From a virus, in IMG/VR virus record IMGVR_UViG_3300027733_000190, positions 1 through 25,245 of that record: a DNA stretch of 25,245 nt. One strand, 5' to 3'. Each line of letters opens with the position of its first letter. Within the stretch, counting starts at the first letter, position 1. The notes under the pieces are model-generated. The model did no database searches. It saw only the letters and a list, made by a program, of their open reading frames with translations, and had not been told where the DNA came from. Below, in pieces: positions 3,620 to 18,020 of the stretch. The translations under genes were made by a program, and so were the position numbers.

Positions 3620-5281
3620 TTAGCTTAAGTTGTTTGGTGCAACACTACCAGTAAGAACTCCAACGTCTCCGATGATGTTCATGCTTAAGTATTGAGTTTC
3701 AGGATGCCATCCAGCTTCTGTGATAGCATAACGAGACTTCATACCAATTTTTGGAGAGAATGTTCCCTCTGAAATTGTTTGAAGTGACTCAGCCATGATA
3801 TACGGCATGAATTTTACTCCTGGCTCTTCGTCTCCACCTTTACGTCCAAGCGTAATACGCGTATCTCCCCAACGTAAGTTAGGATCTACATAAACTTGAA
3901 CTCCGTAAACTTTACCAGCTGGGTAAAGGTTACCTGCAGTTCCAGCCATATCAGTTGGAACTTGAGCGATTGAATAACCGGCTACATCAGCAAGTGCAGA
4001 TGCGATACGACCATTTGTTACAATGAAAGTAGCAGCACCAAAACGACCTCTGTGGTAGATTAAGTTAGCAAGCTCAAGAATTTTTGTTACTAAACGACGT
4101 TGTAAAGTAGATACGTTTTCGAATCCACCTGTACCACCGTTAAGATCTAAATCAGTGATTCCAGCACCTTCTACCAAAGCAACTTCAGTTGTGTGAGCGT
4201 CTCCCATTGTGAAGATACGATCAGTTAAACGTTTGTTGATTGATTGAGCGATGTCGTTAACTGCAACATTCTCTAACATAGAGATAACGTCGTAGTTCCA
4301 TACACGGTTTAAATCTTGGATTTGCTCTACAGTTGCAGAGATAGACACTTGGTCACCTTCTGCTTCTACGAACTTAGTGAACATTCTTAATCCCATTTGA
4401 CGGAATTTAGAAACCTCAGCTTTTTCTCTCTTCATTGATCCCGGTACTGATCCAGTTGATGGAAGATATGGGCCATTGAATGGAGTACCAGTTGAATACT
4501 CGGTATCAGACATTGAAGTGAAACCAGAAATATGGTTTTCAAGTGCAGATACTAATTGTACGTCTGTTGCTGCAATTGTTACTGTACCGACTGTTGCGGT
4601 ACCGCCGATATCGGTGATATTTCCAGTTAAGTCAGTAGCAACCGAATCTGTAGGATTAGCAGAATTGTCAGTTAATACTCTTAAGATAAGATTACCATCT
4701 ACTCTTGAATATCCAACAAAGTCATACGTTGCATTTGCAGTAGCGTGGGTTAATGCCTCTCCTGGAGTTAAGGTTCCTAAGAAATCATTTGCAGTTACAC
4801 CAGTGATTTTAACCATAAATGGTTCGAATTCGCTGTCTAGTCTACCGCCAGTATAAAGATAATCTAAATACGGAAGGAATCCTACTGGAGAATCCATTGG
4901 AATAACTGGAACAAGATCAAATCCAATTGTCTTAGCTGCAACTTGAATAGCTACAGGAAGCAATGATGGAAATTTGTCACCAGAACCGTTTGCATCTGGT
5001 GCAAAACTGTTTTTTGATGCGCCATTAAACGGAGTCATAGCGTTAGTTGGTGCATTTGGTGCTCCCATATAACCACCTAAAGAAGTTGGTTGTTGGAAGA
5101 ATAAGCCTGGAGTTGACTGTTCAAATAAAGGAGTTGCATTATCGAAGATTGCATGGTTGTGTGCATATTCTGCTAACCATGGTGTTCTTGTCATGTCTGC
5201 TCCGTATCCTTCAAGAACAGGTTTCCAAGTTGATGCTAAGCGAGAATCGCTTGAGCGTTTGAAAATTTTTGTACGTGCCAT
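3620..5281 (-). CDS. 23: Major capsid protein, T4 gp23-like
   Basis: This 553-residue protein forms the head shell. The C-terminal half follows gp23: a long helical stretch (KREKAEVSKFRQMGLRMFTK, then SATVEQIQDLNRVWNYDV), the FGAATFIVTNGRIASAL region, the GVQVYVDPNLRWGDTRITLG region, and the conserved end with VKFMPYIMAESL and IGMKSRYAI. The middle (about 150-270) is beta-rich with many Thr, Val and Ala residues and probably corresponds to the inserted domain of gp23. An LAE sequence at residues 36-38 fits the (L/I)xE cleavage rule of T4 prohead protease, so a short N-terminal peptide may be removed; this is an inference. It lies 30 bases downstream of the protease-scaffold gene and is followed by a UUCG terminator. 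The leader is A-rich without a Shine-Dalgarno sequence. Confidence 0.92.
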   Translation of the reverse strand: MARTKIFKRSSDSRLASTWKPVLEGYGADMTRTPWLAEYAHNHAIFDNATPLFEQSTPGLFFQQPTSLGGYMGAPNAPTNAMTPFNGASKNSFAPDANGSGDKFPSLLPVAIQVAAKTIGFDLVPVIPMDSPVGFLPYLDYLYTGGRLDSEFEPFMVKITGVTANDFLGTLTPGEALTHATANATYDFVGYSRVDGNLILRVLTDNSANPTDSVATDLTGNITDIGGTATVGTVTIAATDVQLVSALENHISGFTSMSDTEYSTGTPFNGPYLPSTGSVPGSMKREKAEVSKFRQMGLRMFTKFVEAEGDQVSISATVEQIQDLNRVWNYDVISMLENVAVNDIAQSINKRLTDRIFTMGDAHTTEVALVEGAGITDLDLNGGTGGFENVSTLQRRLVTKILELANLIYHRGRFGAATFIVTNGRIASALADVAGYSIAQVPTDMAGTAGNLYPAGKVYGVQVYVDPNLRWGDTRITLGRKGGDEEPGVKFMPYIMAESLQTISEGTFSPKIGMKSRYAITEAGWHPETQYLSMNIIGDVGVLTGSVAPNNLS

Positions 5282-5311: not shown

Positions 5312-6553
5312 TTATTTGCGATAATCAGCTTGACGCTGAATCATCTCAATATAACCTTGAGAGTAACCTCTCTGCATCTCAACCACCTGATTTACAGGTA
5401 CTAGGCCTTCTGTACTTTGACTTTCGTTGAGTTGTGCTTTTATTTTTGTGTTATTTTTTGCTATTTCAATTCTTTCGTTCATGCCTCTAAGATCTAATTC
5501 GTCCCAGAAATATTTAGCTTGATACGGAGTCTTTATGTTATATAACTCTGATTTTGCTGCAATTTTCGCTTTTTCGTTTTCATTCATCGATCCGAAGGCT
5601 TGCTTGTATTCAGCCGGCATAAACTTAAGGTATGTTGGAACATTTGCATTTTTGTGAGTAATTACTGCTTCCATGATGTTTACAACATCTGCTTCGTTAA
5701 ACCAAACTGATGCATTAAGTGTTTCAACAATTGAGTGTTTTGTCTCAGAATCAAGAGCATAAAATGCTTTTTGTTTAGCTTCAGTTATTACTTTTAAGAA
5801 TGGATATTTACCTTCTAAAACTGCTTTTGAAGATTTATCATTTACTTCAGTGATAACTTTATCAATTTTAGAAACTAGTGAATCAATTGTAGTTGATTCG
5901 TCAATTTTAGAAACTGATCCAAGAACATTACGTTTTTGAGTAGTGTTGCCGCCTTCGTTTAATGATTCCGCAAGATATTCAGTGTAACCAATAGTTTGTC
6001 CTAATTTCTCAGCAACATATTGTTGATACTCACGATTTAAGTTAATATTCTCAGCTAAGTGCTCAGCATATTCAATTCCTTTGTTTGTACCAATCGCAAC
6101 ATACTCAGTATATTGTAATCCTTTGTCTAACTCTTCAGCTAGGTAGTTTTGGTATTTAAGTGAATTGTTTAAGTTTTCTTTGATATACTCTGCGTAATTA
6201 ATCGATTGATTTAATTTCTCAGCCATATAATCTTGGTGATTAATCGATTGATTTAATTTCTCTCCAACATAATTAGTGTATTCAATACTGTTGTTCGAAG
6301 TTTCTGCAACATGCTCAGTATATTTAATTGACTCATTAAGTTTGTTAGAGATATAATCAGCATAATTGATAACTCCTTCAAGTTGTTCTGCTAAATAATT
6401 AACGAAACCTGCAAGTTTTAATTCACGAGTGTCAGAATCAGCAGATTCAAGTATTGCTTTTTGAGTGCTTAATTCTTTTTTAATACCAGAAAACTGATTT
6501 TTCAAGACTTCTGAGTACTGATCCATTTGTTCTCTTGTTACAAAATCGGCCAT
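5312..6553 (-). CDS. Likely separate scaffold product from an internal in-frame start
   Basis: The ATG at 6551-6553 (Met243 of the long protein) starts MADFVTREQMDQY, exactly where the protease linker ends and the scaffold helices begin. The bases before it (CAAAAAAATAGCACAACAATGGC) resemble the leader of the major capsid gene (CAAAAAAAT, a short spacer, then ACACAATGGC). This suggests a translation start giving a 413-residue scaffold, as lambda makes Nu3 from within gene C. No data in the sequence prove that both products are made. Confidence 0.5.
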   Translation of the reverse strand: MADFVTREQMDQYSEVLKNQFSGIKKELSTQKAILESADSDTRELKLAGFVNYLAEQLEGVINYADYISNKLNESIKYTEHVAETSNNSIEYTNYVGEKLNQSINHQDYMAEKLNQSINYAEYIKENLNNSLKYQNYLAEELDKGLQYTEYVAIGTNKGIEYAEHLAENINLNREYQQYVAEKLGQTIGYTEYLAESLNEGGNTTQKRNVLGSVSKIDESTTIDSLVSKIDKVITEVNDKSSKAVLEGKYPFLKVITEAKQKAFYALDSETKHSIVETLNASVWFNEADVVNIMEAVITHKNANVPTYLKFMPAEYKQAFGSMNENEKAKIAAKSELYNIKTPYQAKYFWDELDLRGMNERIEIAKNNTKIKAQLNESQSTEGLVPVNQVVEMQRGYSQGYIEMIQRQADYRK

Positions 6554-7279
6554 TGTTGTGCTATTTTTTTGTGTTTTTTGAGTCGATTGGAAGATACTTC
6601 CTAACTCTTTATTTGAATTATTTATCTTATAGACTTTAAAATTATCTGCAAAATTTAAACTTTCAGATACATCAACTAAGTTTTTAGCAGAAATAAATGA
6701 AACTTCTTTCAGATGGCTATAGCTTTCAGTAATCATTTGAAATTCATTTTTCAACGATTCGCTTACTGTTTGTTTTAAAATAGCTTCAGTGAAACCTGGT
6801 TCACCAACTAAGTCATATGTAAATATTCTTTGTAATGTAACACGGCCGCTTTCATTCACGGTTCCTGCTGCTCTTGAAGAGATTGATAATTGTACTCCAC
6901 CATCAAGTAGAGCTTTTGCAATTTTTCCAGTAGGAGTGTTTTCTAGGATTCTAAGTTTAATGAAGACTCTATTATCACCATCATAGTTTAATTTTTCAAT
7001 GATATGTGATGCTTCAGTTAACTTTGGTTCAAAGTGTTGTGGGTGGTCGAGTGTCCCAACTAACTGCTTCTTAGTAATCTTTTCGTTAAGATATCCAAGA
7101 TGTGGCAAGTATTCGTTCTTTTCATAAACTCTACGATTATTATTCATTTCACCGAATACTGCACAAACACCTTCTAAAACGGTACCGTTTTGTCCAGAGG
7201 ATTGTACTTGGAGTTTCTGACCGACATTCTCAATAATGAGGACAACGTTGTCACTCAACTTATTGTTTAAATTTATCAA
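5312..7279 (-). CDS. 21: Prohead protease (gp21-like) fused in frame to a prohead scaffold region (gp22-like)
   Basis: The 655-residue protein has an N-terminal protease domain (about 1-185) of the T4 gp21 / herpesvirus assemblin type: His79 in GTLDHP and the Ser134/Ser135 pair in LSISSRA are the likely catalytic residues, followed by RIFTYDLVGEPGF. After a Ser/Thr/Gln/Lys-rich linker (about 220-242) comes a helical, highly charged region typical of scaffolds, with eleven 14-residue repeats (292-445), then a C-terminal part of about 210 residues. In T4 protease and scaffold are separate genes; here one frame covers both, with a likely internal start at Met243. The start is TTG at 7277-7279: no ATG is available upstream before an in-frame stop, and the late motif lies 11 bases away. 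The major capsid gene follows directly. Confidence 0.88.
   Translation of the reverse strand: MINLNNKLSDNVVLIIENVGQKLQVQSSGQNGTVLEGVCAVFGEMNNNRRVYEKNEYLPHLGYLNEKITKKQLVGTLDHPQHFEPKLTEASHIIEKLNYDGDNRVFIKLRILENTPTGKIAKALLDGGVQLSISSRAAGTVNESGRVTLQRIFTYDLVGEPGFTEAILKQTVSESLKNEFQMITESYSHLKEVSFISAKNLVDVSESLNFADNFKVYKINNSNKELGSIFQSTQKTQKNSTTMADFVTREQMDQYSEVLKNQFSGIKKELSTQKAILESADSDTRELKLAGFVNYLAEQLEGVINYADYISNKLNESIKYTEHVAETSNNSIEYTNYVGEKLNQSINHQDYMAEKLNQSINYAEYIKENLNNSLKYQNYLAEELDKGLQYTEYVAIGTNKGIEYAEHLAENINLNREYQQYVAEKLGQTIGYTEYLAESLNEGGNTTQKRNVLGSVSKIDESTTIDSLVSKIDKVITEVNDKSSKAVLEGKYPFLKVITEAKQKAFYALDSETKHSIVETLNASVWFNEADVVNIMEAVITHKNANVPTYLKFMPAEYKQAFGSMNENEKAKIAAKSELYNIKTPYQAKYFWDELDLRGMNERIEIAKNNTKIKAQLNESQSTEGLVPVNQVVEMQRGYSQGYIEMIQRQADYRK
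5945..6406 (-). repeat. Eleven tandem 42-base (14-residue) repeats in the scaffold region
   Basis: Residues 292-445 consist of eleven consecutive 14-residue units with no gaps. The consensus is YxEYVAEKLNQSIx: an aromatic at position 1 (Tyr in nine units, Phe or His in the others), usually Tyr at 4, hydrophobics at 5, 9 and 13, Ala at 6 and Glu at 7. Fourteen residues is two heptads, so the array could form a long helix or coiled coil with a periodic tyrosine face. The units differ at the DNA level, so they are old or under selection. Confidence 0.9.
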
Positions 7280-7290
7280 AGCCTTAAATT

Positions 7291-7304
7291 TTTTTATTAT
7301 TTAT
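7291..7304 (-). promoter_or_regulatory. Late-promoter-like motif ATAAATAATAAAAA (copy b)
   Basis: On the minus strand this 14-mer lies 11 bases upstream of the TTG start of the protease-scaffold gene. It is identical to the copies before the Dps-like gene and the first baseplate gene. A short inverted repeat (CCTTAA / TTAAGG, 7282-7287 and 7304-7309) flanks it. It probably drives the protease-scaffold-capsid transcript. Confidence 0.6.
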
Positions 7305-7336
7305 TAAGGATTATATTGAAAAATTCATGGGCAATA

Positions 7337-8329
7337 TTAAATAGTGCTCAATAAGGATAAGAATGTTTCTTTTTCTTCTTTATTTAATTTGGTTGGATCT
7401 GGAGTAAGTATGTCAAACTTAATGAGATAGTCTCCAAGTATACCTGAGTCATTGAGTATTCCTTCGGAAGGTAATACAAACCTAAGATCAGTTAAGCTTC
7501 TGGGCTGATTTATTTCAGCATCATATTTTTTATTAAGGATTGTTTCAATACGAATTTTTGAGTCCTTAGTAACAACTTTATAGAGCGGAATTTCTACACG
7601 GTGAACAATAGTATTATCAACGATTTCAACTTTTTCTGGAACATCGAATCCGATCTCAACATAAAGATCTCCAAAGATCGGAACTTGTTCAATATCACCC
7701 CAAATATTTCGGCGAGTATGCACATCTTCGTTTCCAAGCTTAGCAACTCGAACCTTGGCCAAGTATCTAGAGCCTTCACGTTTGATTTGGAGGTACATCT
7801 TACGTAAACTTAATTGAATACTAATCTCTTTTTCTTCATCATCTCGAGTGTACGTAATGATTTCGCCTGCCTGTCCAGTATATCGTATCTTTTTTCGAGT
7901 ATATGTCAATTCGATCTTCTTTCCAAGCATTGCATCAGAAAGAGAGATTACTTCGCTCACAGTTATATCTAAATATGTGGTGTTTGGTGGTGGTGCGTGT
8001 GTTTTACCCTGCGAGGCTCGCCCTCGACTATTACTTGTTTCTCGAGATTGTCTAAATTGACTTGTGGAGAACTGTCCACCATATGATTTAACAAATTCGT
8101 CATAATTATATGTCGGATTTGTGCTTTGTTTTGGAGAATCATATTGTTTTCTCTTGGTTTCATCACTAAGAACTTCATATGCTTCTGCAATAGATTTGAA
8201 TTTATCCTCTGCTGTTTTATCATCCGGATTAGTGTCCGGATGGTGTTTTAGAGCCAGTGAACGATATGCCTTTTTAATCTCAGCAGTCGTTGCTGTTTTT
8301 GAAACACCTAATATCGAATAATAATCCAT
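7337..8329 (-). CDS. CbpA/DnaJ-like co-chaperone
   Basis: Residues 1-65 are a full J domain with the HPD motif (His30-Pro31-Asp32), the [12 protein letters not shown] helix and the [17 protein letters not shown] end. HPD stimulates the ATPase of an Hsp70 partner. A Ser/Gln/Arg-rich linker (about 66-115) leads to a DnaJ_C-type substrate-binding region (about 118-320) with strand-rich segments and a GDLYVEIGF motif. There is no CxxCxGxG zinc domain, which makes it the CbpA class. At 330 residues it is slightly longer than CbpA (about 306). It lies immediately upstream of the head genes, so a role in recruiting host DnaK to head assembly is plausible but inferred. It is divergent from the glycan block, with only 56 bases between them. 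Confidence 0.9.
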
Positions 8330-8385: not shown

Positions 8386-9006
8386 GTGTCTGTTTTAATT
8401 AAAAGTTTACGAGAATTTATCGGCATACATAAAGGTGAAAACATTATAGTATGCGGATGTGGCATGTCACTACTTCCATTTAAGGATGTTCATTCTAAAT
8501 ACATTACGATTGGTGTAAATGATGTTCCTGCTCTATTTCAACCGACATATTTAGTAGTAACTGATCATCCAAACCGATTTGCAATAGAGCGTCGCCGTAA
8601 ACTCGTCAATGAATCAACGGCAAAATACCTTTTTACTTGTTCCAAAGGCTGGCGGCATAAGAATCTAGTAACTTTTGAGCTTGGGTCAAAAGCAATCAGG
8701 CATCTCGATGACCCAAATCGAATTGACCATTTTGTTAATTCGCCGTATGTTGCAATTGGACTTGCATATAAGCTTGGTGCAAAGAATATTGGATTAATTG
8801 GTGTAGACTTTACCAATGGACACTTCTATAATCCAAAAGATGGAGCCCATCCTGTGATTCAAATAAATTATCTTAACAAGGTAAATTCTGCCTATACTAG
8901 TTTGAAAATTGAACTTGGAAAGCGTGGAGTTTCACTCTATAATCTTAGCCAGCAAAGTCTGGTTGAGCTACCAAAAATAACTCTCGATCAATTCGATAAG
9001 CTATGA
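8386..9006 (+). CDS. GT42/DUF115-like Rossmann protein, candidate sialyltransferase-type enzyme
   Basis: This 206-residue protein opens the glycan block with a GTG start. It begins with a Rossmann-like [14 protein letters not shown] turn and ITIGVNDV, and continues with [24 protein letters not shown], then GAHPVIQ and a C-terminal [15 protein letters not shown] strand. The order and spacing match the GT42 sialyltransferase fold (in CstII: GNGPSL, CNQF, SGVYMCAVAIALGYKEIYLSGIDF, then a catalytic His) and the related DUF115/MptE-like proteins. His in GAHP is a candidate catalytic base. The next gene is CMP-sugar synthetase-like and overlaps by four bases (ATGA), which supports a sialyltransferase-type role. 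The family call is by motif memory and could equally be a DUF115 protein of other function. Confidence 0.6.
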
Positions 9007-9647
9007 AAATAATTATTCCAGCAAGACTTGGGTCAAAGGGTTTACCTTTTAAAAATCGTACTCTTTTCGAACATACTGCGAATATCATACCTGAAAACAT
9101 AATAAGTTCAGTTATTGTAACGACAAATGATCCAGTTGTTAGTTTACAGGCAAAAGATTATGGATTTAAAGTTATTAGACGACCTGATGAACTGGCAGAA
9201 GATACTACATCTGTTCGAGATGTTCTTATGCACGCAATTAACTCAATTCATACTAAGCCGGAAGAATTAATTGTGACACTATACTTAACTTATCCCCAGC
9301 GTACTTGGGAGAATGTCGAGTCGGCTATTCAGTTTTTTCTAGAGTATTATCAACATGGTCTAACAGATTCAATGCTTTGCAAAAAAGAAGCACCGGTCCA
9401 TCCATACCTTTGTCTTCGTGAACATGGAGTAGATGGAATATTTGGAAGACAACTTGTCACACACGACTTATATCGACGCCAGGATTATCCAAAGGTCTTT
9501 GAGATAAGCCACTTTGTTTCAATATTTAAAGCGGGCAGTATATATAATCTAAACAGTAATCTTTACTGTGATACTACTATATTTTACCCAATACCCGACG
9601 TCATTGATGTCGATACACAAAAAGAACTAGACCAATTTAATGGATAA
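9003..9647 (+). CDS. neuA: CMP-nonulosonic acid cytidylyltransferase (NeuA/PseF-like)
   Basis: This enzyme would join CMP from CTP to a nonulosonic (sialic-like) acid. The 214-residue protein has the nucleotide-binding start IIPARLGSKGLPFKN (Arg8, Lys12), VIVTTNDPVVSLQAKDYGFKVIRRP, the LAEDTTSVRDVLMHA segment, and the metal-site IDVDT (Asp202, Asp204) near the C-terminus. Typical NeuA proteins are about 220-230 residues. The usual QPTSPLR segment is replaced by LYLTYPQRT (93-101), which may shift substrate choice. It overlaps the gene before by four bases and the gene after by eight, so it is translated as part of one operon. Relatives such as PseF or LegF are equally possible. Confidence 0.82.
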   Translation: MKIIIPARLGSKGLPFKNRTLFEHTANIIPENIISSVIVTTNDPVVSLQAKDYGFKVIRRPDELAEDTTSVRDVLMHAINSIHTKPEELIVTLYLTYPQRTWENVESAIQFFLEYYQHGLTDSMLCKKEAPVHPYLCLREHGVDGIFGRQLVTHDLYRRQDYPKVFEISHFVSIFKAGSIYNLNSNLYCDTTIFYPIPDVIDVDTQKELDQFNG

Positions 9648-11079
9648 TAATATTAATGTTGCAACTGAGATTAGCGACGCATCATTCCATTTTACGCGAA
9701 ACAGTGTTTTCAGCTTTGTTGAAACGAACAAGTGGTTTACTGGCACACTCTATCTCATATCTCATCAGAGTTTGCCAGTGTCAGATCGAAATATTGAGAT
9801 AGTTAGATCAATTTATCCAAAGGTTGAGGTGATTGATGTTACTGGAGATCCAATATTTGCAAAATATTCAACTGTTTCAAATCGGTCAAATACTGGTGCT
9901 GAAATTTATTCAAATCTTAGATTTACCTTATTTAATTTAGGATTATCAAAAGTATTATTCTTTTCAAGTTCAGCTCTCTTTTTTAAAGAAGTAACTGATA
10001 TTCTTTCAGCAAATGAATTTACTGCAACTCCTGGCCTAAATTTATTTTATCTAGCTCGACCGCTGGATATTTCAAAATACATAAATTCACCCACGTTAGA
10101 GAAATATATTTTAGAACAAGCAATACCGTCGACTATTATATCATACAAGTCGACTGAATTTAGTGATTCAAAATTTCATCAGTTAACTTGGAAATTAAAA
10201 GACGCACATCATATATTATTTGAGACGTTTGGCACAAATTCGACAAAATATTTTAAGATAAATCAAGTATGGTTACATAAAAACCACACAGTTTCCCAGA
10301 ACCTGTTAAAACCTAGTTCATTTACTGAAATAGTTTCACCTGAAATTCCACGAGATATTCCAACTAGAAGTAGAGTATTATTGGACGGAATCAGTATAAT
10401 TATTCCTGCATATAAAGCCAGTGAATATATTGAAGCTTGCTTAGATTCTATACGATGTTTAACAATACCTACTGAAATATTAGTCGGCGTTGATAATTGC
10501 GACTCTACTCTAATTAAATTAATTCAAATTCGAGGAAAATATCCAAATTTAAAAATATTTAGAACGACCGACTCTGTCGGGCCGTATATTATTAGAAACA
10601 GTCTAGTTGATTACATTAAATATTCAAATATCTTGTTTTTTGATGCGGATGATATTATGAAAGACTTACTATTCACCATGCTTTCAACATATAATAATGG
10701 ATCTTCTCAAATACGCTTCAAATTCACAAATTTTAAGAATGATGAAAATCCTGTCGAATCCACTGATAATCACTCAGTAACTGCACATGGAGTCTTCTTC
10801 ATACCTGCAGGATCATTTAAAAGAGTCGGTGGATTTCAACCCTGGATATGCGGTGCCGACACTGAATTTATTAAACGGTGTCAAGCAAATAGATTGCATA
10901 TTATTGAAATTAATCAGTACTTATTTTATCGTCGAATTCACAAAGCAAGTCTTACTCAAAATCCAGAGACGACTCATGGATCAAAGATTCGAAATAAGCA
11001 TTGTGCATGGATTAAACAAAATCGAGATTGGCACATCCCAATTACTAAGAAAATAACTCTACTCGAAAAAATAAATTAA
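9640..11079 (+). CDS. Two-domain glycosyltransferase: degenerate GT8-like plus GT2
   Basis: Residues 1 to about 240 look like a GT8-type domain: FTGTLYLISHQSL, an EVIDV strand and an IYSNLRFTLFNLGLSKVLFF region that in GT8 leads into the metal-binding DxD. Here the DxD position is Ser-Ser-Ser (109-111), so that site is probably dead. Residues about 250-479 are a GT2 domain: GISIIIPAYKASEYIEACLDSI, LVGVDNCDS, the DADD metal motif (335-338), and the acceptor-side RVGGF and GADTEFIKRC segments. The GT2 half looks active. The protein may be a bidomain glycan polymerase-like enzyme in which only one half transfers sugar. The start overlaps neuA by eight bases. Confidence 0.8.
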   Translation: MDNNINVATEISDASFHFTRNSVFSFVETNKWFTGTLYLISHQSLPVSDRNIEIVRSIYPKVEVIDVTGDPIFAKYSTVSNRSNTGAEIYSNLRFTLFNLGLSKVLFFSSSALFFKEVTDILSANEFTATPGLNLFYLARPLDISKYINSPTLEKYILEQAIPSTIISYKSTEFSDSKFHQLTWKLKDAHHILFETFGTNSTKYFKINQVWLHKNHTVSQNLLKPSSFTEIVSPEIPRDIPTRSRVLLDGISIIIPAYKASEYIEACLDSIRCLTIPTEILVGVDNCDSTLIKLIQIRGKYPNLKIFRTTDSVGPYIIRNSLVDYIKYSNILFFDADDIMKDLLFTMLSTYNNGSSQIRFKFTNFKNDENPVESTDNHSVTAHGVFFIPAGSFKRVGGFQPWICGADTEFIKRCQANRLHIIEINQYLFYRRIHKASLTQNPETTHGSKIRNKHCAWIKQNRDWHIPITKKITLLEKIN

Positions 11080-11081
11080 TT

Positions 11082-11681
11082 ATGAAACACATTATTATAT
11101 CGAGACTAAATTTTACTGACCGCTGCTTACTTAATAAATATTTAATTATTACAAAATCCGTTTTAATTCCGGCATTAAAATCTCAAACTCAAAAAAAATT
11201 TACTTGGGTTCTTATAATTAATAAGAACGATGAACAATATTTAAGAGAACAATTAGATTTTTCATTTGATGCGGTATATGATAATACTGGTTTTATTGAA
11301 TACGTAACACATAACAAACCTAATATTCAGACTCGACATGATTGTGATGATTGGATGTCACATAATTATGTCGACCGTATACAGACTGAATATTTACACA
11401 ATATTAAAAAATTTAATTCCTTTATTATACACGTTCAACCCACTAAATTTGATTATTTGACTGGCTCTGAAATTCATTTACCCAAATACCATGATGAGAG
11501 ATGTTCAATGTTTTTAAGTCTATGCCAATTAAATTCAATTCACCACGTTAACGAAAGAAAACATGGACAAATGTATGAAATTACTAAAAATATTATATTA
11601 TTGCCTGAAGGATATTGTAAATGGGTAATACATGGAAATAATAAATCTAAAAAAATAAGTAAAAAATGCAACAACCGATAG
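11082..11681 (+). CDS. Putative rhamnosyltransferase-family glycosyltransferase
   Basis: This 199-residue protein fits the family called putative rhamnosyl transferase (PF11316): an opening IIISRLNF strand, RCLLNKYLIITKSVLIPALK, TWVLIINKND, and the diagnostic QTRHDCDDWMSHNYVDRIQ stretch, where Asp87-Cys-Asp89-Asp90 is the likely metal/nucleotide-sugar site. The sugar donor cannot be read from sequence. The C-terminal tail is Lys/Asn-rich and overlaps the next gene by 16 bases. It starts two bases after the previous stop. Confidence 0.72.
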   Translation: MKHIIISRLNFTDRCLLNKYLIITKSVLIPALKSQTQKKFTWVLIINKNDEQYLREQLDFSFDAVYDNTGFIEYVTHNKPNIQTRHDCDDWMSHNYVDRIQTEYLHNIKKFNSFIIHVQPTKFDYLTGSEIHLPKYHDERCSMFLSLCQLNSIHHVNERKHGQMYEITKNIILLPEGYCKWVIHGNNKSKKISKKCNNR

Positions 11682-12388
11682 ATATTTGTGTAGTAACATA
11701 TAACCGACTCGCATATTTAAAAAATTGTGTATGGTCAATTATTGCCGCCACTAAAATACCATACCGACTCTTTATTATTTCAGATAATTCAAATGATGGA
11801 ACAAATGAATGGCTTCTCGAAATGAAATCATTCGGTAAAATTGATGAAGTTATCATTAATTCTGAAAATTTAGGTAGTGCTAAATCATTTAATAAGGTAA
11901 TTGAAGCAACTTCTTCTGAATACTTTGTGATGACTTGTGACGACATGTGGTTCCATAGAGGATGGGATAATGCCTGTGTTCAAATATTAAATGAATTTAA
12001 AGATTGCGGAATGGTCACCTTCTTTAACTTTCCAATTAAAGAAGGAGATACTCAACTTAAAATGGTAAATAATCATACATATTATCGTCAAGTTACAGGA
12101 TTGGGAAGCACAATAATTAACCGAAAACTGTTTGATGGTATTGGAGGATTTAATTTACCAGATGGACTTAAAATGGGATATTTTGCAAAAGAATTATGTA
12201 AAAAAGCACTATCGACTAATTTGCGTAGAAATAAACATTATTTAACAAACCCTTTTTATTCTGAACAAATGGATCGCCATAATCCTGGAAGTACTGAAAA
12301 AACTCCTCCGAAACTTTCACAAGAATATTTATATTCCGAATATAATATTCGACGCAGTGCTGAAAAAAATAAATTTAAAAATTTATGA
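11666..12388 (+). CDS. GT2-family glycosyltransferase
   Basis: This is a classic GT-A, family 2 start: DICVVTYNRLAYLKNCVWSI, then LFIISDNSNDGTNEWLL and NSENLGSAKSFNKVI. The metal motif is TCDDMW (Asp92, Asp93). The GLGSTIINRKLFDGIGGF segment and the DGLKMGYFAKE segment mark the acceptor side. At 240 residues it is a single-domain soluble enzyme without membrane segments. It overlaps the preceding gene by 16 bases and the next by four, so it is co-translated. Donor and acceptor are unknown. Confidence 0.83.
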   Translation: MQQPIDICVVTYNRLAYLKNCVWSIIAATKIPYRLFIISDNSNDGTNEWLLEMKSFGKIDEVIINSENLGSAKSFNKVIEATSSEYFVMTCDDMWFHRGWDNACVQILNEFKDCGMVTFFNFPIKEGDTQLKMVNNHTYYRQVTGLGSTIINRKLFDGIGGFNLPDGLKMGYFAKELCKKALSTNLRRNKHYLTNPFYSEQMDRHNPGSTEKTPPKLSQEYLYSEYNIRRSAEKNKFKNL

Positions 12389-13164
12389 TTTCTCAAGTTT
12401 ACATATCTCCTACTCTTGAGGCTACCTTTGGAGAAAATTTTAGAAATTTTTGGAAATTAAAAAAATATTCGAATCCTACTTCTCCTGCAATTTTTTTTGG
12501 TCTATACACTCAAGCCGATTTAGACGTCTTGACTGTACATAAGTCAAATTCAATTATTATTTGGGGCGGCGGAGATATGCGGCACGATTCTTTGAGTTAC
12601 GTATATAATATTACAACCAACGGAAATGGATTTACTCTTGCCTATCCTGGAGAATTTTCAAAAATTTTGAAGGACTATTCAATTCCTCATAAATTACTAT
12701 ATCTTCAAATAAAGAACTATTCAGAGTTTGCTTCGTGTCCATTGGGAGATAAAATATATGTTTATCGTGGAATAAAGGGAACTCGATCTAATTATTTTCA
12801 ATGGGATAATGTAATAACTCCATTAATTAAATATTTTGGAGAAAATAAAATCATATATACCGATAATTTATTAATTCCAGAGCTAATGGAAAATTTTTAC
12901 AAAAAAAGTTTTGTATATGTTAAGCCTACTCCAAAGGGAGGCTGTACTGCAATGTTTGAACTTGGACATATGGGAAGAAAAACAATAGGGATCGGTCATT
13001 CAGATCTTCCTAATTTTATTAAGTATAAAAGCATACCTCACTTAATTAAATTAATAGAGCACGAATCTAAATATATTGGTTCAATTCAAACAAATATTTC
13101 AGAAGAAACTCGTAATATTTTTTGTGGAAGAGAGTGGCTTGATTTAAACTTTTGGAAAAAATAA
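12385..13164 (+). CDS. GT-B type glycosyltransferase-like protein
   Basis: The protein (259 aa) lacks the DxD of GT-A enzymes. Its C-terminal half resembles the donor domain of GT4/GT-B enzymes: KSFVYVKPTPKGGCTAMFEL, then GRKTIGIGHSDLPNFI and an LIKLIEHES helix, with Glu192 in the usual acidic position. The N-terminal half has alternating strands (SPAIFFGLYTQADLDVL, NSIIIWGGGDMRHDS). It is smaller than typical GT4 enzymes (350-400 aa), so the N-terminal domain is reduced. It follows the GT2 gene with an ATGA overlap. Confidence 0.68.
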   Translation: MISQVYISPTLEATFGENFRNFWKLKKYSNPTSPAIFFGLYTQADLDVLTVHKSNSIIIWGGGDMRHDSLSYVYNITTNGNGFTLAYPGEFSKILKDYSIPHKLLYLQIKNYSEFASCPLGDKIYVYRGIKGTRSNYFQWDNVITPLIKYFGENKIIYTDNLLIPELMENFYKKSFVYVKPTPKGGCTAMFELGHMGRKTIGIGHSDLPNFIKYKSIPHLIKLIEHESKYIGSIQTNISEETRNIFCGREWLDLNFWKK

Positions 13165-13174
13165 AAAATATACA

Positions 13175-13957
13175 ATGGAAAATATACAAGTTGAAAATTT
13201 AGAAATTGGAAAAAATGTTATTATTTCTCCAACTGCAATTATTCGAGGACTCGATGGAAAAGCTCGCAGAGTAAAACTTGGCGATAATACATATATCGGA
13301 GATCATGTTCAAATAATAGTAGATGACTTAGAGATTGGCGATTATTGTAAAATTCACCATCATACCAATTTACATGGATATAAGCCACTCAAAATTGGTC
13401 ATAATGCTTGGATAGGGCAATATACAATTATTGATAGTATCGGCGGAACAACGATTGGTAATAATTGTGGAATCGGCGCACATTCACAATTATGGTCACA
13501 TATTTTATATGGCGACGATCTTGAAGGTTGTAATTATAATTCAAAAAAGTCTCTTATTGTTGGAAATGATTGTTGGTTCGTCGGCCACTGTATCATTTCT
13601 CCAATAACTGCAAAGGATCGGTCCATGGCATTAGTTGGAAGTGTGATAACGAAAGATATGGAAGAAAATCACATATATGGCGGATCACCAGCTAAAGACC
13701 TAACTGGAAAAATTCCTTCTCAATTTAAAGAAGTGACAATTGCTGAAAAATATAAAAAAATGATAACTTATTATCAGGAATACGGTTCGCCTACATCTAT
13801 TAAAATAATTTTAGATGATTCTGAAATACTAAGCGATAATATTTCATATTTTAATGTTAGTAATAGAACATATACTAAAAGATTAACTAGTGATGAAATT
13901 AATTTTATGAAATATCTTCTTCCAACTAAAGCAAAATTCATACCTAAAAATAATTAA
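13175..13957 (+). CDS. Left-handed beta-helix (hexapeptide) acyltransferase
   Basis: Most of the 260 residues are hexapeptide repeats: LGDNTYIGDHVQII, IGDYCKIHHHTNL, IGHNAWIGQYTII, IGNNCGIGAHSQLW, VGNDCWFVGHCII and the closing GSVITKDMEENHIYGGSPAK. This is the maltose/galactoside O-acetyltransferase superfamily, probably acting as a trimer on a sugar hydroxyl or amino group with acetyl-CoA. Histidines in HHH and GAHS are candidates for the catalytic base. A C-terminal tail of about 65 residues is extra to the family core. Next to an aminotransferase, it could N-acetylate an amino sugar, as in pseudaminic and legionaminic acid pathways. Confidence 0.85.
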   Translation: MENIQVENLEIGKNVIISPTAIIRGLDGKARRVKLGDNTYIGDHVQIIVDDLEIGDYCKIHHHTNLHGYKPLKIGHNAWIGQYTIIDSIGGTTIGNNCGIGAHSQLWSHILYGDDLEGCNYNSKKSLIVGNDCWFVGHCIISPITAKDRSMALVGSVITKDMEENHIYGGSPAKDLTGKIPSQFKEVTIAEKYKKMITYYQEYGSPTSIKIILDDSEILSDNISYFNVSNRTYTKRLTSDEINFMKYLLPTKAKFIPKNN

Positions 13958-13963
13958 TTTATT

Positions 13964-14599
13964 ATGCCAATCAAACAACACAATCCGTACAAGATCGTTC
14001 AAATGTTCGAAGAAGAACTTGCATTATATACTGGTGCAAAATATGCAATATCAGTCGATAGCTGCACAAATGCACTATTTCTTTGCTGTACATATTTAAA
14101 AGTTAAAGAAGCAATTATTCCATCAAAAACATATTTGTCAGTGCCGATGAGTATAACTCAAGCTGGAGGAGAAGTAATTTTTGACACACGCCCTGAAACA
14201 AATCACTGGATTGGAATTTATCAAATTAAACCATATCCACTATATGATTCAGCTAAAAGACTTACATCAAATATGTATATTCCAGGATCATTTATGTGTC
14301 TTTCATTTCATATTAAAAAACAATTAGGAATAGGTAAAGGTGGAATGATACTGACTGATGATTTAGCTGCAGTTGACTGGTTTAAGCGTGCTCGATATGA
14401 AGGCCGAAGCGAACGCTTCTATAAAGAAGATGATATTACATCGTTTGGCTGGAATATGTATATGACTCCGCAGGAAGCTGCACAGGGACTATGCCTATTA
14501 CAAAATTATCCAGAACATGTCGCAGATCAGGGAGAAGTAAACGGCTATCGTGATCTTACTGAATTTTCTATTTTTAAAAGCAATAGAACAATCAAGTAA
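13964..14599 (+). CDS. Short DegT/DnrJ/StrS-type sugar aminotransferase
   Basis: This is a PLP-dependent aminotransferase acting on nucleotide-linked keto sugars. Visible are the SCTNALFL segment (Ser33), Asp95 in YPLYDSAKRL, and the Schiff-base lysine Lys119 in SFHIKKQLGIGKGGMI. The SFGWNMYMTPQEAAQGLCLL segment (about 160-179) matches the conserved interface region. The protein stops at 211 residues, while the family is usually 360-400, so the C-terminal domain is missing. No remnant of it is seen downstream, so the gene appears naturally short rather than frameshifted. It sits six bases after the acyltransferase gene, which suggests amination followed by acetylation. Confidence 0.82.
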   Translation: MPIKQHNPYKIVQMFEEELALYTGAKYAISVDSCTNALFLCCTYLKVKEAIIPSKTYLSVPMSITQAGGEVIFDTRPETNHWIGIYQIKPYPLYDSAKRLTSNMYIPGSFMCLSFHIKKQLGIGKGGMILTDDLAAVDWFKRARYEGRSERFYKEDDITSFGWNMYMTPQEAAQGLCLLQNYPEHVADQGEVNGYRDLTEFSIFKSNRTIK

Positions 14600-14652
14600 C
14601 AAAACTTGAAGTATCCCATATAGTATTAGATGTAGTCTAATAACGTTAAAGG
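14600..14652 (+). other. Small intergenic gap with two AT-rich hairpins
   Basis: This is one of the few gaps inside the glycan block. It holds TCAAGT/ACTTGA (14592-14609, spanning the stop codon) and a perfect 7-bp hairpin TATTAGA/TCTAATA with a TGTAG loop (14624-14642). No T run follows, so neither is a standard terminator. AAAGG lies directly before the next ATG. A weak processing or attenuation site is possible. Confidence 0.35.
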
Positions 14653-15483
14653 ATGAAACTCAGCGTATCATATATTGTATTTGATGGAGTTGAATTGCTA
14701 GAACACTCGATTCGTCAAATTAGGAAGCATGCTAACCACATCAGCGTAATTTATCAGAATTTTTCATGGTTTGGAAAGAAATTATCTGCTGCTGATCTGA
14801 TCATACTTAAATCTCTTGCACGTTCTGGACAAATTGATGAACTAATACTCTTTAGTTCATTTGTGCCTCTTCGAAACAAGACGCAATCTTCAATTCTTAC
14901 TGCAAAGAGTTATGAACGGGCTAAGAGACAGGTCGGTCTTTCTGCGGCTCTACGTAATTCATGTACTCACTATTTATGTATGGACGTCGACGAATTCTAT
15001 ACTTCTGATCAATTTGCAACCGCTAAAAATCTAATTAAAACTTCTGGATTTGAGTCGACTGCTGTTCGCTTAATTAATTATGTAAATATTCCAATTGTAC
15101 ATCGTGGGTATGATTCAATTCGAGTCCCATTTATCTGCAAGATTTCAAATGAGTCTAGGATGAGTACCTCATTTTTCGTAAAATGTGATCCGACTCGAGG
15201 AATTTCTCCAGTGTCTCCTAAGCGACATGAATTTACTCCAAATATTATTACGATGCACCATATGGAAACAGTACGTAAGGATATATTATTAAAATATGAC
15301 TCGACTACTCGAATGATATTTAAACGTGAAAGAACGCAAGATCTAGTAAATAGTATAAAATCAGTAACTGAAAACAGTAAATCAGTTGACTTTAAAAAAA
15401 TAATATTTCCTGGATTAAATCAAGTTACGTTGACTACTTGTGAAAATATATTCGGAATACCATACCGCACATGGAAAAATTAA
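14653..15483 (+). CDS. GT-A glycosyltransferase (GT2/GT92-like, DVDEF motif)
   Basis: The 276-residue protein has a GT-A start (KLSVSYIVFDGVELLEHSI), a long helical segment, and the metal-binding MDVDEFY motif (Asp111, Asp113), which is typical of GT92-like and PF13704-type glycosyltransferases. Downstream, MHHME is a candidate second metal or catalytic segment. There is no signal peptide or membrane segment. It overlaps the following gene by 13 bases. Specificity is unknown. Confidence 0.7.
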   Translation: MKLSVSYIVFDGVELLEHSIRQIRKHANHISVIYQNFSWFGKKLSAADLIILKSLARSGQIDELILFSSFVPLRNKTQSSILTAKSYERAKRQVGLSAALRNSCTHYLCMDVDEFYTSDQFATAKNLIKTSGFESTAVRLINYVNIPIVHRGYDSIRVPFICKISNESRMSTSFFVKCDPTRGISPVSPKRHEFTPNIITMHHMETVRKDILLKYDSTTRMIFKRERTQDLVNSIKSVTENSKSVDFKKIIFPGLNQVTLTTCENIFGIPYRTWKN

Positions 15484-16154
15484 TAGCATTGGAATTTACA
15501 ACAACTGCATGTAATCGATCAGAAATATTAAATAGAACATACTCAAGTTACTGTTCTAAATTACAGGGTGTAGATTTTAAATCGAGCATACTATACATTA
15601 ACATCGATCCTTCACCCACAGTAAATAATATAGACGCTGTTGAGAAAGTCGCTAAAAAATATTTCGGTACAGTTGTTGTCAATTTTCCAAATACCGCAAA
15701 TTTTGCAAAAGCAATTATCTGGTGCTTTTCTCAAGTGAACGGCCCATACTTTTTTCATTTAGAAGATGATTGGGAGCTTTTACGACCTGTTGAAATACCT
15801 AGACTAATATCTGCAGTCGGCTCATCTAATTTGCAGTGTGTGCTAAATAAACAAAAGACGGCAATTGGACTTAATGAAGTCGGAGAGCCGACATTTGTTC
15901 CAAGCATCTTTTCAACAACTCATATTAAAAAATATTTACCGCATATGGTAGATAACTTGAATCCAGAATATCAGATGAAGCTTATTTTTAGAAATAAAAA
16001 AAATAATTTACATTTACATAAAAGTGTTTTAGTAAATCAACAATTTGAATTTTCAAAAGATATCGGTAGATCATGGTTATCAAAAAATGGACTATCTCGT
16101 AATTACACTAAATCTAAAAAATGGTCACCTTGGATAACATGGAAAAAACAATAA
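15471..16154 (+). CDS. GT-A glycosyltransferase with EDDW motif
   Basis: This 227-residue protein has a short GT-A core: FTTTACNRSEILNRTYSSY, a strand LYINIDPSP, NFPNTANFAKAIIWCF, and the metal motif HLEDDWEL (Glu98, Asp99, Asp100). The C-terminus is basic and Trp-rich. Its last bases overlap the NeuB-like gene by 16 bases. It reads as another single-domain transferase for the same glycan. Donor and acceptor cannot be told from the sequence. Confidence 0.7.
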   Translation: MEKLIALEFTTTACNRSEILNRTYSSYCSKLQGVDFKSSILYINIDPSPTVNNIDAVEKVAKKYFGTVVVNFPNTANFAKAIIWCFSQVNGPYFFHLEDDWELLRPVEIPRLISAVGSSNLQCVLNKQKTAIGLNEVGEPTFVPSIFSTTHIKKYLPHMVDNLNPEYQMKLIFRNKKNNLHLHKSVLVNQQFEFSKDIGRSWLSKNGLSRNYTKSKKWSPWITWKKQ

Positions 16155-17029
16155 TAATTGCAGAAATCGGTATTAATTATGCATATGGAACAGATTCTTC
16201 AAAGTTTATAGAAAATGCAAAAGCTCTAATTGATGTTGCACACGCAGCTGGTGCAAACTATGTTAAATTTCAGAGACGCGATCCTGAATTATGTGTTCCT
16301 ATTGAAGAACGCAGCAAATCAAAGATCGTTCCTTGGAGAAATGGTGAAACTACTTATTTTCAATATAAGTTAGATATTGAGTTTTCACAAGCACAGTATG
16401 ACATACTTGATGATTATTGTCAAGCTAAGGGTATTCCATGGTTCGCATCAGTTTGGGATAAAAAATCAGTTGATGCAATGCGTCGATTTAACACAAAACT
16501 TCCAAATGGTAAATGGGGAGTAATGACAAAAATACCGTCGGCTCTTATTCATGACTTAGATCTAGTTGAATATGCTCGAGAAAATTCTGATTTTCTATTA
16601 ATTTCAACCGGCATGAGTACACAGGATGAAATTGATCTTGCGATTCAAACTGGCAAGCCAGACGTAGTATTTCATACAAATTCAACATATCCGTCGCCAA
16701 TTGAAGAATTGAATTTAGAGTATATTCGTTATCTTTCTCATTTGAATGCATCACACGAATTTAACAATGCATTTGAAGTAGGATATTCATCTCATGAAAG
16801 ATCGATTGTTACTTGTGCTTCATCTATTTTATATGGAGCAACTTGGATAGAGAGACATATCACACTAGATAGAAATTTCTGGGGAAGTGATCAGTTAAGT
16901 TCATCAGATCTTCCTGAATTTGCATTGTTAATTAAAAACATTCGCGAAATCGAGTCATCTAGAGGCATATATGGATTGCGTAAAGTATTTGAGTCAGAAT
17001 TACATAAAAAGAAGACTTTAAGAGGATAA
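16139..17029 (+). CDS. neuB: Nonulosonic (sialic-like) acid synthase, NeuB-like, without SAF domain
   Basis: NeuB enzymes condense phosphoenolpyruvate with an N-acetyl-hexosamine-type sugar. The TIM-barrel motifs are all present: IIIAEIGINYAYG, AGANYVKFQ (Gln45), KIPSALIHDLDLV, LLISTGMSTQDEI, HTNSTYPSPIEELNL, VGYSSHE (His219) and WIERHITLDRNFWGSDQLSS (His240). Gln45, His219 and His240 correspond to metal/PEP ligands of known NeuB. The protein ends at 296 residues, so the C-terminal SAF (antifreeze-like) domain of about 60 residues is absent. I start at the ATG at 16139; an in-frame ATG at 16121 would add six residues inside the upstream gene. The preceding glycosyltransferase overlaps by 16 bases. 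Confidence 0.9.
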   Translation: MEKTIIIAEIGINYAYGTDSSKFIENAKALIDVAHAAGANYVKFQRRDPELCVPIEERSKSKIVPWRNGETTYFQYKLDIEFSQAQYDILDDYCQAKGIPWFASVWDKKSVDAMRRFNTKLPNGKWGVMTKIPSALIHDLDLVEYARENSDFLLISTGMSTQDEIDLAIQTGKPDVVFHTNSTYPSPIEELNLEYIRYLSHLNASHEFNNAFEVGYSSHERSIVTCASSILYGATWIERHITLDRNFWGSDQLSSSDLPEFALLIKNIREIESSRGIYGLRKVFESELHKKKTLRG

Positions 17030-17039
17030 ATAACTAAAA
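17026..17039 (+). promoter_or_regulatory. Near match to the late motif (12 of 14) before the endonuclease gene
   Basis: ATAAATAACTAAAA matches the 14-base late motif at 12 of 14 positions and lies 15 bases before the endonuclease ATG. It overlaps the neuB stop codon. It is the only good match found on the plus strand inside the glycan block, so the endonuclease gene may have brought its own late-type promoter. Chance is possible in this AT-rich DNA. Confidence 0.35.
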
Positions 17040-17054
17040 TAGGTTATTCAGGAT

Positions 17055-18020
17055 ATGAATCAAATTAGTTGTAAAATATGTAATGAAACCGACTTGGCTA
17101 AAATGAAAAGTATAGTCTTTAAAAAAACGAATAGTAGAAAATACTATAATATTTGTATATTATGCTATTCAAAAAAGATGAAAGACTCTCTATTGGCTAC
17201 CTGTAAAAACTATTCTACTGAAAAAATAGAAAAAGCTAAACAAAAAAGAAAAGAAACTAATTTGAAAAAATATGGAACTGCCTTCCCTCAAAAATTAGAT
17301 TCAGTAAAATTAAAAACGAAGCAAAATAATTTATTAAAACATGGAGTTGAAAATCCGTGGCAATCCACACAAATTAAAGACAAAATAAAAAAGACCAATT
17401 TAGAAAGATATGGAGTTGAATATGTTTCTCAATCTAATCTTATTAAAAATAAAAAATTAAATTCATGGTTTTCTAAAAAACCAGAAGAACGTCAAAAAAT
17501 AATAAATAAAACAAATTCAACAAAGAGATCGAAGACTGATTCTCAAAAATTAAAAACTAAGGAGCTGAGGGAAAATACAAATTTACATAAATATGGAGTC
17601 AAAAATATTGGTCAATTAAATTATTCATATTCTAAAATATCTCAAGAATTATTTAATTCGATATATTTAAAATTACCCGCATTTCTTCAGCAAAAAACGT
17701 ATTATGCATCATTGAATTTTGAATTTATAAGAAAATTTAATGAATCGACATATCTATATGATTTTACCATAACGTCAATAAAGAAAATTATAGAGTTTAA
17801 TGGAGATCTATGGCATGCGAATCCACTAAAATATCCTGATCCTAACTTAAAAATGAAAAGATTAAATGGAATTACATGTAAAGAAATATGGGATAGAGAT
17901 TTAAAAAAAATACAACACGTCGAGTCAATTGGATATTCGGTTAAGGTCATTTGGGAAAATGACTATGTAAAAAATAAAGAAGAAACCATCACTTCTTGTA
18001 TATCATGGCTTTTAAATTAG
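17055..18020 (+). CDS. Homing endonuclease with zinc knuckles, TNLxKYG repeats and Vsr-like nuclease domain
   Basis: The 321-residue protein has an N-terminal zinc site (C6xxC9 and C34xxC37), then a Lys-rich region with three or four TNLEKYGVENVSQS-like repeats (for example TNLKKYG, NLLKHGVENPWQS, TNLERYGVEYVSQS), a DNA-binding pattern of phage free-standing endonucleases. The C-terminal nuclease part has YDFTITSIKKIIEFNGDLWH (Asp and Glu metal ligands), then a DRDLKKIQHVESIGYSVKVI stretch and IWENDY. This is the Vsr/EDxHD fold of the I-Bth0305I group. It is intensely A-rich, more so than its neighbours, which fits a selfish gene inserted between neuB and the small Cys-rich gene. Its cut site is unknown. 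Confidence 0.82.
   Translation: MNQISCKICNETDLAKMKSIVFKKTNSRKYYNICILCYSKKMKDSLLATCKNYSTEKIEKAKQKRKETNLKKYGTAFPQKLDSVKLKTKQNNLLKHGVENPWQSTQIKDKIKKTNLERYGVEYVSQSNLIKNKKLNSWFSKKPEERQKIINKTNSTKRSKTDSQKLKTKELRENTNLHKYGVKNIGQLNYSYSKISQELFNSIYLKLPAFLQQKTYYASLNFEFIRKFNESTYLYDFTITSIKKIIEFNGDLWHANPLKYPDPNLKMKRLNGITCKEIWDRDLKKIQHVESIGYSVKVIWENDYVKNKEETITSCISWLLN

Follow-up and report, generated by a model that had tools for sequence, protein, structure and literature searches.

A T4 prohead holds about 580 copies of the scaffold protein gp22 and 55–100 copies of the protease gp21 (PMC9958956, PMC5694885), a scaffold-to-protease ratio that has been given as about 10:1 (PMC9958956) or as 576:100 (PMC5694885). 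In the viral DNA analyzed here, a stretch of 25,245 nt that we call the window, both functions lie in a single reading frame, and because a fusion alone would deliver them at 1:1, it would be insufficient for a scaffold excess like that of T4. How, then, might such a phage obtain enough scaffold?

A protease and a scaffold in one reading frame

The frame and its parts are as follows:

5312..7279, minus strand: protease-scaffold fusion frame at full length, 655 codons from TTG, about 74 kDa
6800..7216, minus strand: gp21-type protease domain, residues about 22–160, with His79 and Ser134
6758..6760, minus strand: E174, candidate self-cleavage site V-S-E/S (cut after E) in the disordered linker
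6662..6664, minus strand: E206, second candidate cleavage site V-S-E/S (cut after E)
5312..6553, minus strand: proposed nested scaffold gene from the ATG of Met243, 413 codons, about 47 kDa
5945..6364, minus strand: 14-residue scaffold repeats, e.g. YAEYIKENLNNSLK, with self-identity peaks at lags 14 and 28

Read on the minus strand from 7279 to 5312, the frame leads from a gp21-type protease through a disordered linker into a helical scaffold. Protease and scaffold domains share one frame in 170 of 170 related contigs, a count that says nothing about the fused share among all gp21-type phages, as the searches for relatives favor full-length matches. Residues 30–144 match Pfam Peptidase_S77 (41.9 bits against a cut-off of 27, E = 1e-10), residues 11–270 match PHROG 207 ‘head maturation protease’ (5.6e-36), and hhalign of the frame's profile against T4 gp21 gives E = 5.8e-10. 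In the profile comparison His79 and Ser134, both invariant among 37 sequences, align with T4 His85 and Ser140, the catalytic residues of gp21. The only solved structure that we found among relatives of the protease is that of T4 gp21 itself (5jbl). On these profile matches the domain is of the T4 gp21 type, and its predicted activity is the proteolysis of head proteins. An AlphaFold2 model of the full frame, of moderate to low confidence (mean pLDDT 57), places the protease at residues ~22–160, followed by a low-confidence linker to ~248 and the first scaffold helix at residue 249, with the repeat region helical. Within the linker, the column of E174 holds Glu in every sequence that has a letter there, with Ser next in nearly all, and E206 is Glu in 55 of 56 representatives; the protease may release itself at these x-E-S sites.

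An earlier note on this DNA had read the 655-residue frame as holding both gp21 and gp22. The single frame with a protease and a scaffold stands, whereas the assignment to gp22 by sequence does not: hhalign gave a probability of 0.1 with nothing aligned in the scaffold part, and among the 37 members no gp22 PHROG was found. Homology to gp22 is thereby ruled out at the level of detectable sequence similarity, and the scaffold part is an analogue of gp22 by position and architecture only. In the huge phages (L041–L045, L130–L209) the 14-residue repeats form an enlarged array, YSEYLAENLDKNI, of varying copy number, and the length of this array could bear on head size.

An invariant methionine at the domain border

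Two further features bear on the border between the domains:

6554..6571, minus strand: A-rich leader CAAAAAAATAGCACAACA of the nested start
3620..5281, minus strand: gp23-type major capsid gene (3.4e-33), the next gene downstream, with a similar A-rich leader

Met243 (window 6553–6551, minus strand) sits at the protease/scaffold border, and had been put forward in the earlier note as a likely nested start whose conservation, together with that of its leader, could be checked in relatives. We found Met at the aligned border position in 170 of 170 distinct relatives, down to ~32% protein identity, and the leader is kept in the closer clades. The outcome named in the note as refuting, relatives devoid of both, was not observed. 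The relatives came from three scans and five huge-phage records of 462–735 kb; the last 80 of the 170 were fetched after the Met had been predicted, with huge-phage sequences as the query, and among the first 90 the Met is kept in all 24 representatives below 70% identity.

In a 37-sequence alignment, Met243 is the sole column conserved at 90% or more between Tyr217 and Val247. The residues flanking it are hypervariable, and its distance to the FVT block that follows differs by several residues between sequences. An invariant Met amid variable flanks and variable spacing shows the pattern of a start codon, unlike that of a structural residue. The same observations bear on the reading that only the fusion is made and that free scaffold arises from it by proteolysis, with Met243 marking a site of cleavage or having a structural role. 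P2 is cited in PMC8508860 as having protease and scaffold in a single gene, and the conserved x-E-S motifs of the linker would likewise speak for proteolytic release; however, the hypervariable flanks and the differing distance to the next block rule out either role for Met243, the candidate cleavage sites E174 and E206 lie away from it, and the constraint described below falls on synonymous positions. We regard this reading as very improbable, and retain Met243 as a probable translation start.

The leader of Met243 (CAAAAAAAT...ACAATGGC) resembles that of the capsid gene, a likeness already pointed out in the earlier note and borne out by the pattern AAAAAAAT-N(6-14)-ATGGC, which is rare (1–3 copies per related contig). 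In all 8 of the contigs searched a copy stands at the Met243 homologue, and in 7 of them a copy stands at the start of the capsid gene. Genome-wide statistics were taken from related contigs, the record of the window itself comprising only 25 kb. The start profile of these phages is an A-rich leader with no Shine-Dalgarno signal, and the Met243 leader reaches a matrix score of 5.63, compared with a median of 4.78 for 269 confident starts of the same phages. Among 2,042 internal in-frame ATGs this score falls within the highest 0.5%, and the homologous ATG ranks within the best 40 internal ATGs in 8 of 9 contigs. For stable RNA structure at the nested start the signal was weak (z −1.34).

Synonymous positions at the Met are constrained as well. 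Across 11 sequences of the window's own clade, codons 234–244 show 0.09 of the expected synonymous differences, the lowest of 652 such 11-codon segments and a ratio that one column permutation in 5,000 attained; these synonymous figures are to be read as rankings and not as exact probabilities, because sequence pairs are not independent. The 22 sequences of distant clade D likewise have the synonymous minimum of the frame at the Met. In a larger clade A set the segment at the Met stands at 0.32, rank 17 of 652, with the upstream motif described below and the 3′ end lower, and in the huge phages it is the upstream motif that is constrained, with no excess synonymous constraint at the Met itself. 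Invariance in the relatives, the leader and the synonymous constraint confirm, on comparative grounds, a conserved in-frame internal start at the protease/scaffold border.

A late-promoter-like motif before the internal start

One further element precedes the nested ATG:

6618..6625, minus strand: internal motif ATAAATAA, resembling a late promoter, 72 nt upstream of the nested ATG

Across nine related contigs, no 8-mer is more strongly enriched upstream of genes than ATAAATAA (72 occurrences against 6.9 expected); its usual distance is 20–29 nt before the gene start, and it is very similar to the T4 late promoter TATAAATA. Of 15 large related contigs, 10 encode a late sigma factor of the gp55 type (phrog_234), compared with 0 of 14 control genomes. 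The upstream motif follows the clades, being ATAAATAA in A–C and GATATATA in D (L102–L123), where GATATATA stands upstream of genes 29 times against 0.4 expected, and this difference suggests a change in late sigma specificity.

Inside the fusion frame, 43 of 44 non-redundant clade A–C sequences contain ATAAATAA 42–75 nt ahead of the internal ATG, while just six further copies occur in 86.6 kb of the same frames. ATA makes up only 18% of the Ile codons in these frames, yet it is kept at the motif in 43 of the 44 sequences, and the synonymous constraint covers the motif; one relative, L006, has a low-scoring copy. In clade D, 15 of 22 sequences have GATATATA instead, 67–79 nt ahead of the internal ATG, with 7 of 22 lacking a full GATATATA, and sequences of the huge-phage clade retain GGATATATGA near −48. 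The internal motif is probably the late promoter of the scaffold gene. We grade it as probable because its spacing is unusual (42–79 nt, compared with the usual 20–29), its matrix scores are lower (15.0, inside the range of known sites and below their median) and it overlaps a conserved peptide, IYKIN.

The unusual spacing and the conserved peptide speak for a purely translational nesting, as in lambda C/Nu3, with one late mRNA carrying two in-frame starts and no internal promoter; the upstream motif would then be kept for some other cause, such as the peptide IYKIN or an RNA structure. The capsid gene lends this alternative some support, since it also lacks a promoter motif at the usual place and has an A-rich leader like that of Met243. 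It has to contend, however, with the retention of a minor Ile codon in nearly all sequences, with the synonymous constraint on the motif, and with the switch to GATATATA in precisely the clade whose genes bear GATATATA, and on balance we consider it rather unlikely.

An internal promoter at this position would serve the capsid gene too, which raises the further alternative that the constraint reflects nothing but a promoter or leader of the capsid gene within the frame and that the ATG is idle. Conservation of the motif would fit, but this alternative leaves unexplained an ATG that is invariant in 170 sequences, a leader that matches the genome-wide start profile and a constraint that extends to the codons beside the ATG; we give it hardly any credence. 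The reading that we favor is that of an internal start with, probably, a late promoter of its own.

A hairpin at the full-length start

The upstream end of the frame contains three elements:

7277..7279, minus strand: TTG start of the full-length product, TTG in most clade A–C relatives
7290..7304, minus strand: external late-promoter-like motif ATAAATAATAAAAAA, matrix score 22.9
7282..7309, minus strand: inverted repeat CCTTAA...TTAAGG, with the external motif in its loop and its 3′ arm adjoining the TTG

We take the TTG at 7279 as the start of the full-length product because it is conserved in relatives and is preceded, 25 nt upstream, by a perfect copy of the promoter-like motif; the first in-frame ATG of the frame is codon 45. 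In a few clade A–C relatives the start is GTG or ATG, and in these clades it follows the motif by 24–26 nt. The arms of the inverted repeat covary across 30 sequences, where arms paired with their own partners give −8.25 kcal/mol and permuted partners −5.52 kcal/mol, a difference matched in 0 of 20,000 permutations; the window's own copy has a short, weak stem. With the motif in the loop, RNA begun at the late promoter would be devoid of the 5′ arm. In read-through RNA, the hairpin would hide the full-length TTG and guard against early synthesis of the protease. A hairpin around the promoter as a general feature of these phages was also considered and is ruled out (P = 0.58).

Neighboring genes and elements

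At the 3′ end of the frame lies a second conserved element, apart from the nested start:

5359..5431, minus strand: conserved structured element, upstream of the capsid gene

This stretch of ~75 nt is nearly invariant and can form the stems CTCAAC/GTTGAG, CCTG/CAGG and GAGAG/CTCTC, with a fold z of −4.5, a synonymous constraint of 0.12–0.3 and a few compensatory pairs between clades. No Rfam family matched anywhere in the window, this element included, and a role in control of the capsid gene is possible. Directly upstream of the protease gene, at 8329–7337 on the minus strand, lies a gene for a DnaJ-type J-domain protein; a J-domain motif is found upstream in 30 of 30 clade A, 12 of 13 clade B and 13 of 15 clade C sequences, is rare in clade D and is found in none of the huge phages. 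The plus-strand genes at 8386–18020, which separate the head genes from the baseplate genes, include several whose products resemble, as judged by eye, sugar-nucleotide, glycosyltransferase, acyltransferase and sialic-acid-synthase-type enzymes, perhaps for changes to surface glycans.

A model for two head proteins from one gene

We consider it quite likely that this locus is a nested late head-gene pair giving a scarce protease-scaffold fusion and an abundant free scaffold, with an internal promoter being probable. In this way one gene seems to supply two proteins for head assembly in a large, widespread group of T4-like phages. From the layout we infer the activity of the motifs as promoters, the synthesis of both products, their ratio, their co-assembly and the self-cleavage. 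Before the late phase, the hairpin, formed only in read-through RNA, would keep the TTG hidden. In the late phase, mRNA made from the T4-type late promoter just upstream would yield little of the 655-residue fusion from the weak TTG, and initiation at codon 243, whose ATG follows an A-rich leader and probably has a separate late promoter 72 nt upstream, would yield more of the 413-residue scaffold. Fusion and free scaffold would then co-assemble via their common scaffold domain, so that the protease would enter the prohead at a set low ratio. When the shell is complete, the protease may cut itself loose at the x-E-S sites of the linker and digest the scaffold, a release that would be in line with the C-terminal autocleavage of SPN3US gp245 (PMC5694885). 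A weak TTG and a strong internal ATG, with or without a promoter of its own, would restore the scaffold excess, and nesting would thereby solve the copy-number problem of a fusion.

Comparison with known systems

T4 genes 21 and 22 encode the same protease family and have the same order before gene 23, but are two separate frames, as the earlier note had said and the T4 record bears out, lying 30 nt apart, compared with a single frame here. In that record TATAAATA stands about 35 nt upstream of gene 22, where it shares bases with the gene 21 stop codon. A possible evolutionary route is a frame change across a promoter of the gene 22 type, which would fuse the two genes and leave promoter and start inside the fusion. 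Shorter in-frame proteins are annotated for T4 genes 17 and 49, and the gene 17 record notes internal transcription and translation; these products involve no protease/scaffold split. The proposed hairpin has its counterpart in T4 e, soc, 49 and I-TevI, where a hairpin in read-through RNA hides the start and late RNA lacks the 5′ arm (PMC3014915). The device of gene e differs in that here a head protease is concerned, the start is TTG with no Shine-Dalgarno sequence, and repression is only predicted.

Fusion need not entail nesting. The ‘prohead core scaffolding protein and protease’ of Tenacibaculum phage PTm1 is a single fused CDS followed by the capsid gene, but has no Met at the border, so that a nested start is not apparent, and its annotation carries one listed product. 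In phage C48C1 the protease and scaffold genes are separate, and the fused and split forms therefore coexist among gp21-type phages. Two more distant phages, Prevotella phage Lak-A1 (L046) and Streptococcus phage GXN1 (L050), each have one frame over the protease and a presumed scaffold, with Mets of doubtful homology in their linkers, the Lak frame being read with TAG as sense. A 2017 paper on giant phages of the SPN3US/phiKZ type, a different group, states that no counterpart of gp22 had been confirmed in any giant phage (PMC5694885). In the open literature, with most subscription journals lying outside the search, we found no report of a nested gp21-type protease/scaffold gene.

In lambda, C and Nu3 are head genes beside the capsid gene, and gpC is a different type of protease. 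The scaffold Nu3 is read in the frame of C and occupies the 3′ end of that gene (PMC8508860, citing Shaw and Murialdo 1980). The present locus differs from this arrangement in its gp21-type protease and in the promoter motif before the internal start. The earlier note had likened the locus to lambda C/Nu3 as a T4-type protease under a lambda-type expression scheme; in-frame nesting with a T4-type protease is retained, whereas the scheme itself is probably not purely lambda-like. The internal late-promoter-like motif and the hairpin-sequestered TTG make UL26/UL26.5 of HSV-1 the nearer parallel.

The second gene of that pair, UL26.5, has its own promoter. UL26 also encodes the protease first (247 residues) and the scaffold second in one frame, and UL26.5, which starts inside it, yields just the scaffold, with the sequence of the C-terminal part (PMC12474303). 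The two systems differ in host, sequence and type of promoter, and on the phage side the second promoter and both products are predicted ones; if that promoter is real, a separate scaffold transcript would be common to both. The herpesvirus protease and T4 gp21 are reported to share structural elements and catalytic residues (PMC5694885), and with the same layout on both sides it becomes testable whether nesting is ancestral or arose repeatedly. Conservation alone makes it very likely that a broad group of large and huge phages expresses a T4-type protease and its scaffold from a nested gene, and this names a scaffold candidate for the huge phages. For the full proposal, we lean towards an internal late promoter and ATG that are common to a very large group of phages with genomes of up to 735 kb, forming a counterpart of UL26/UL26.5 and supplying the huge-phage scaffold candidate; in the part of the group to which the window belongs, a hairpin-guarded TTG would keep protease levels low.
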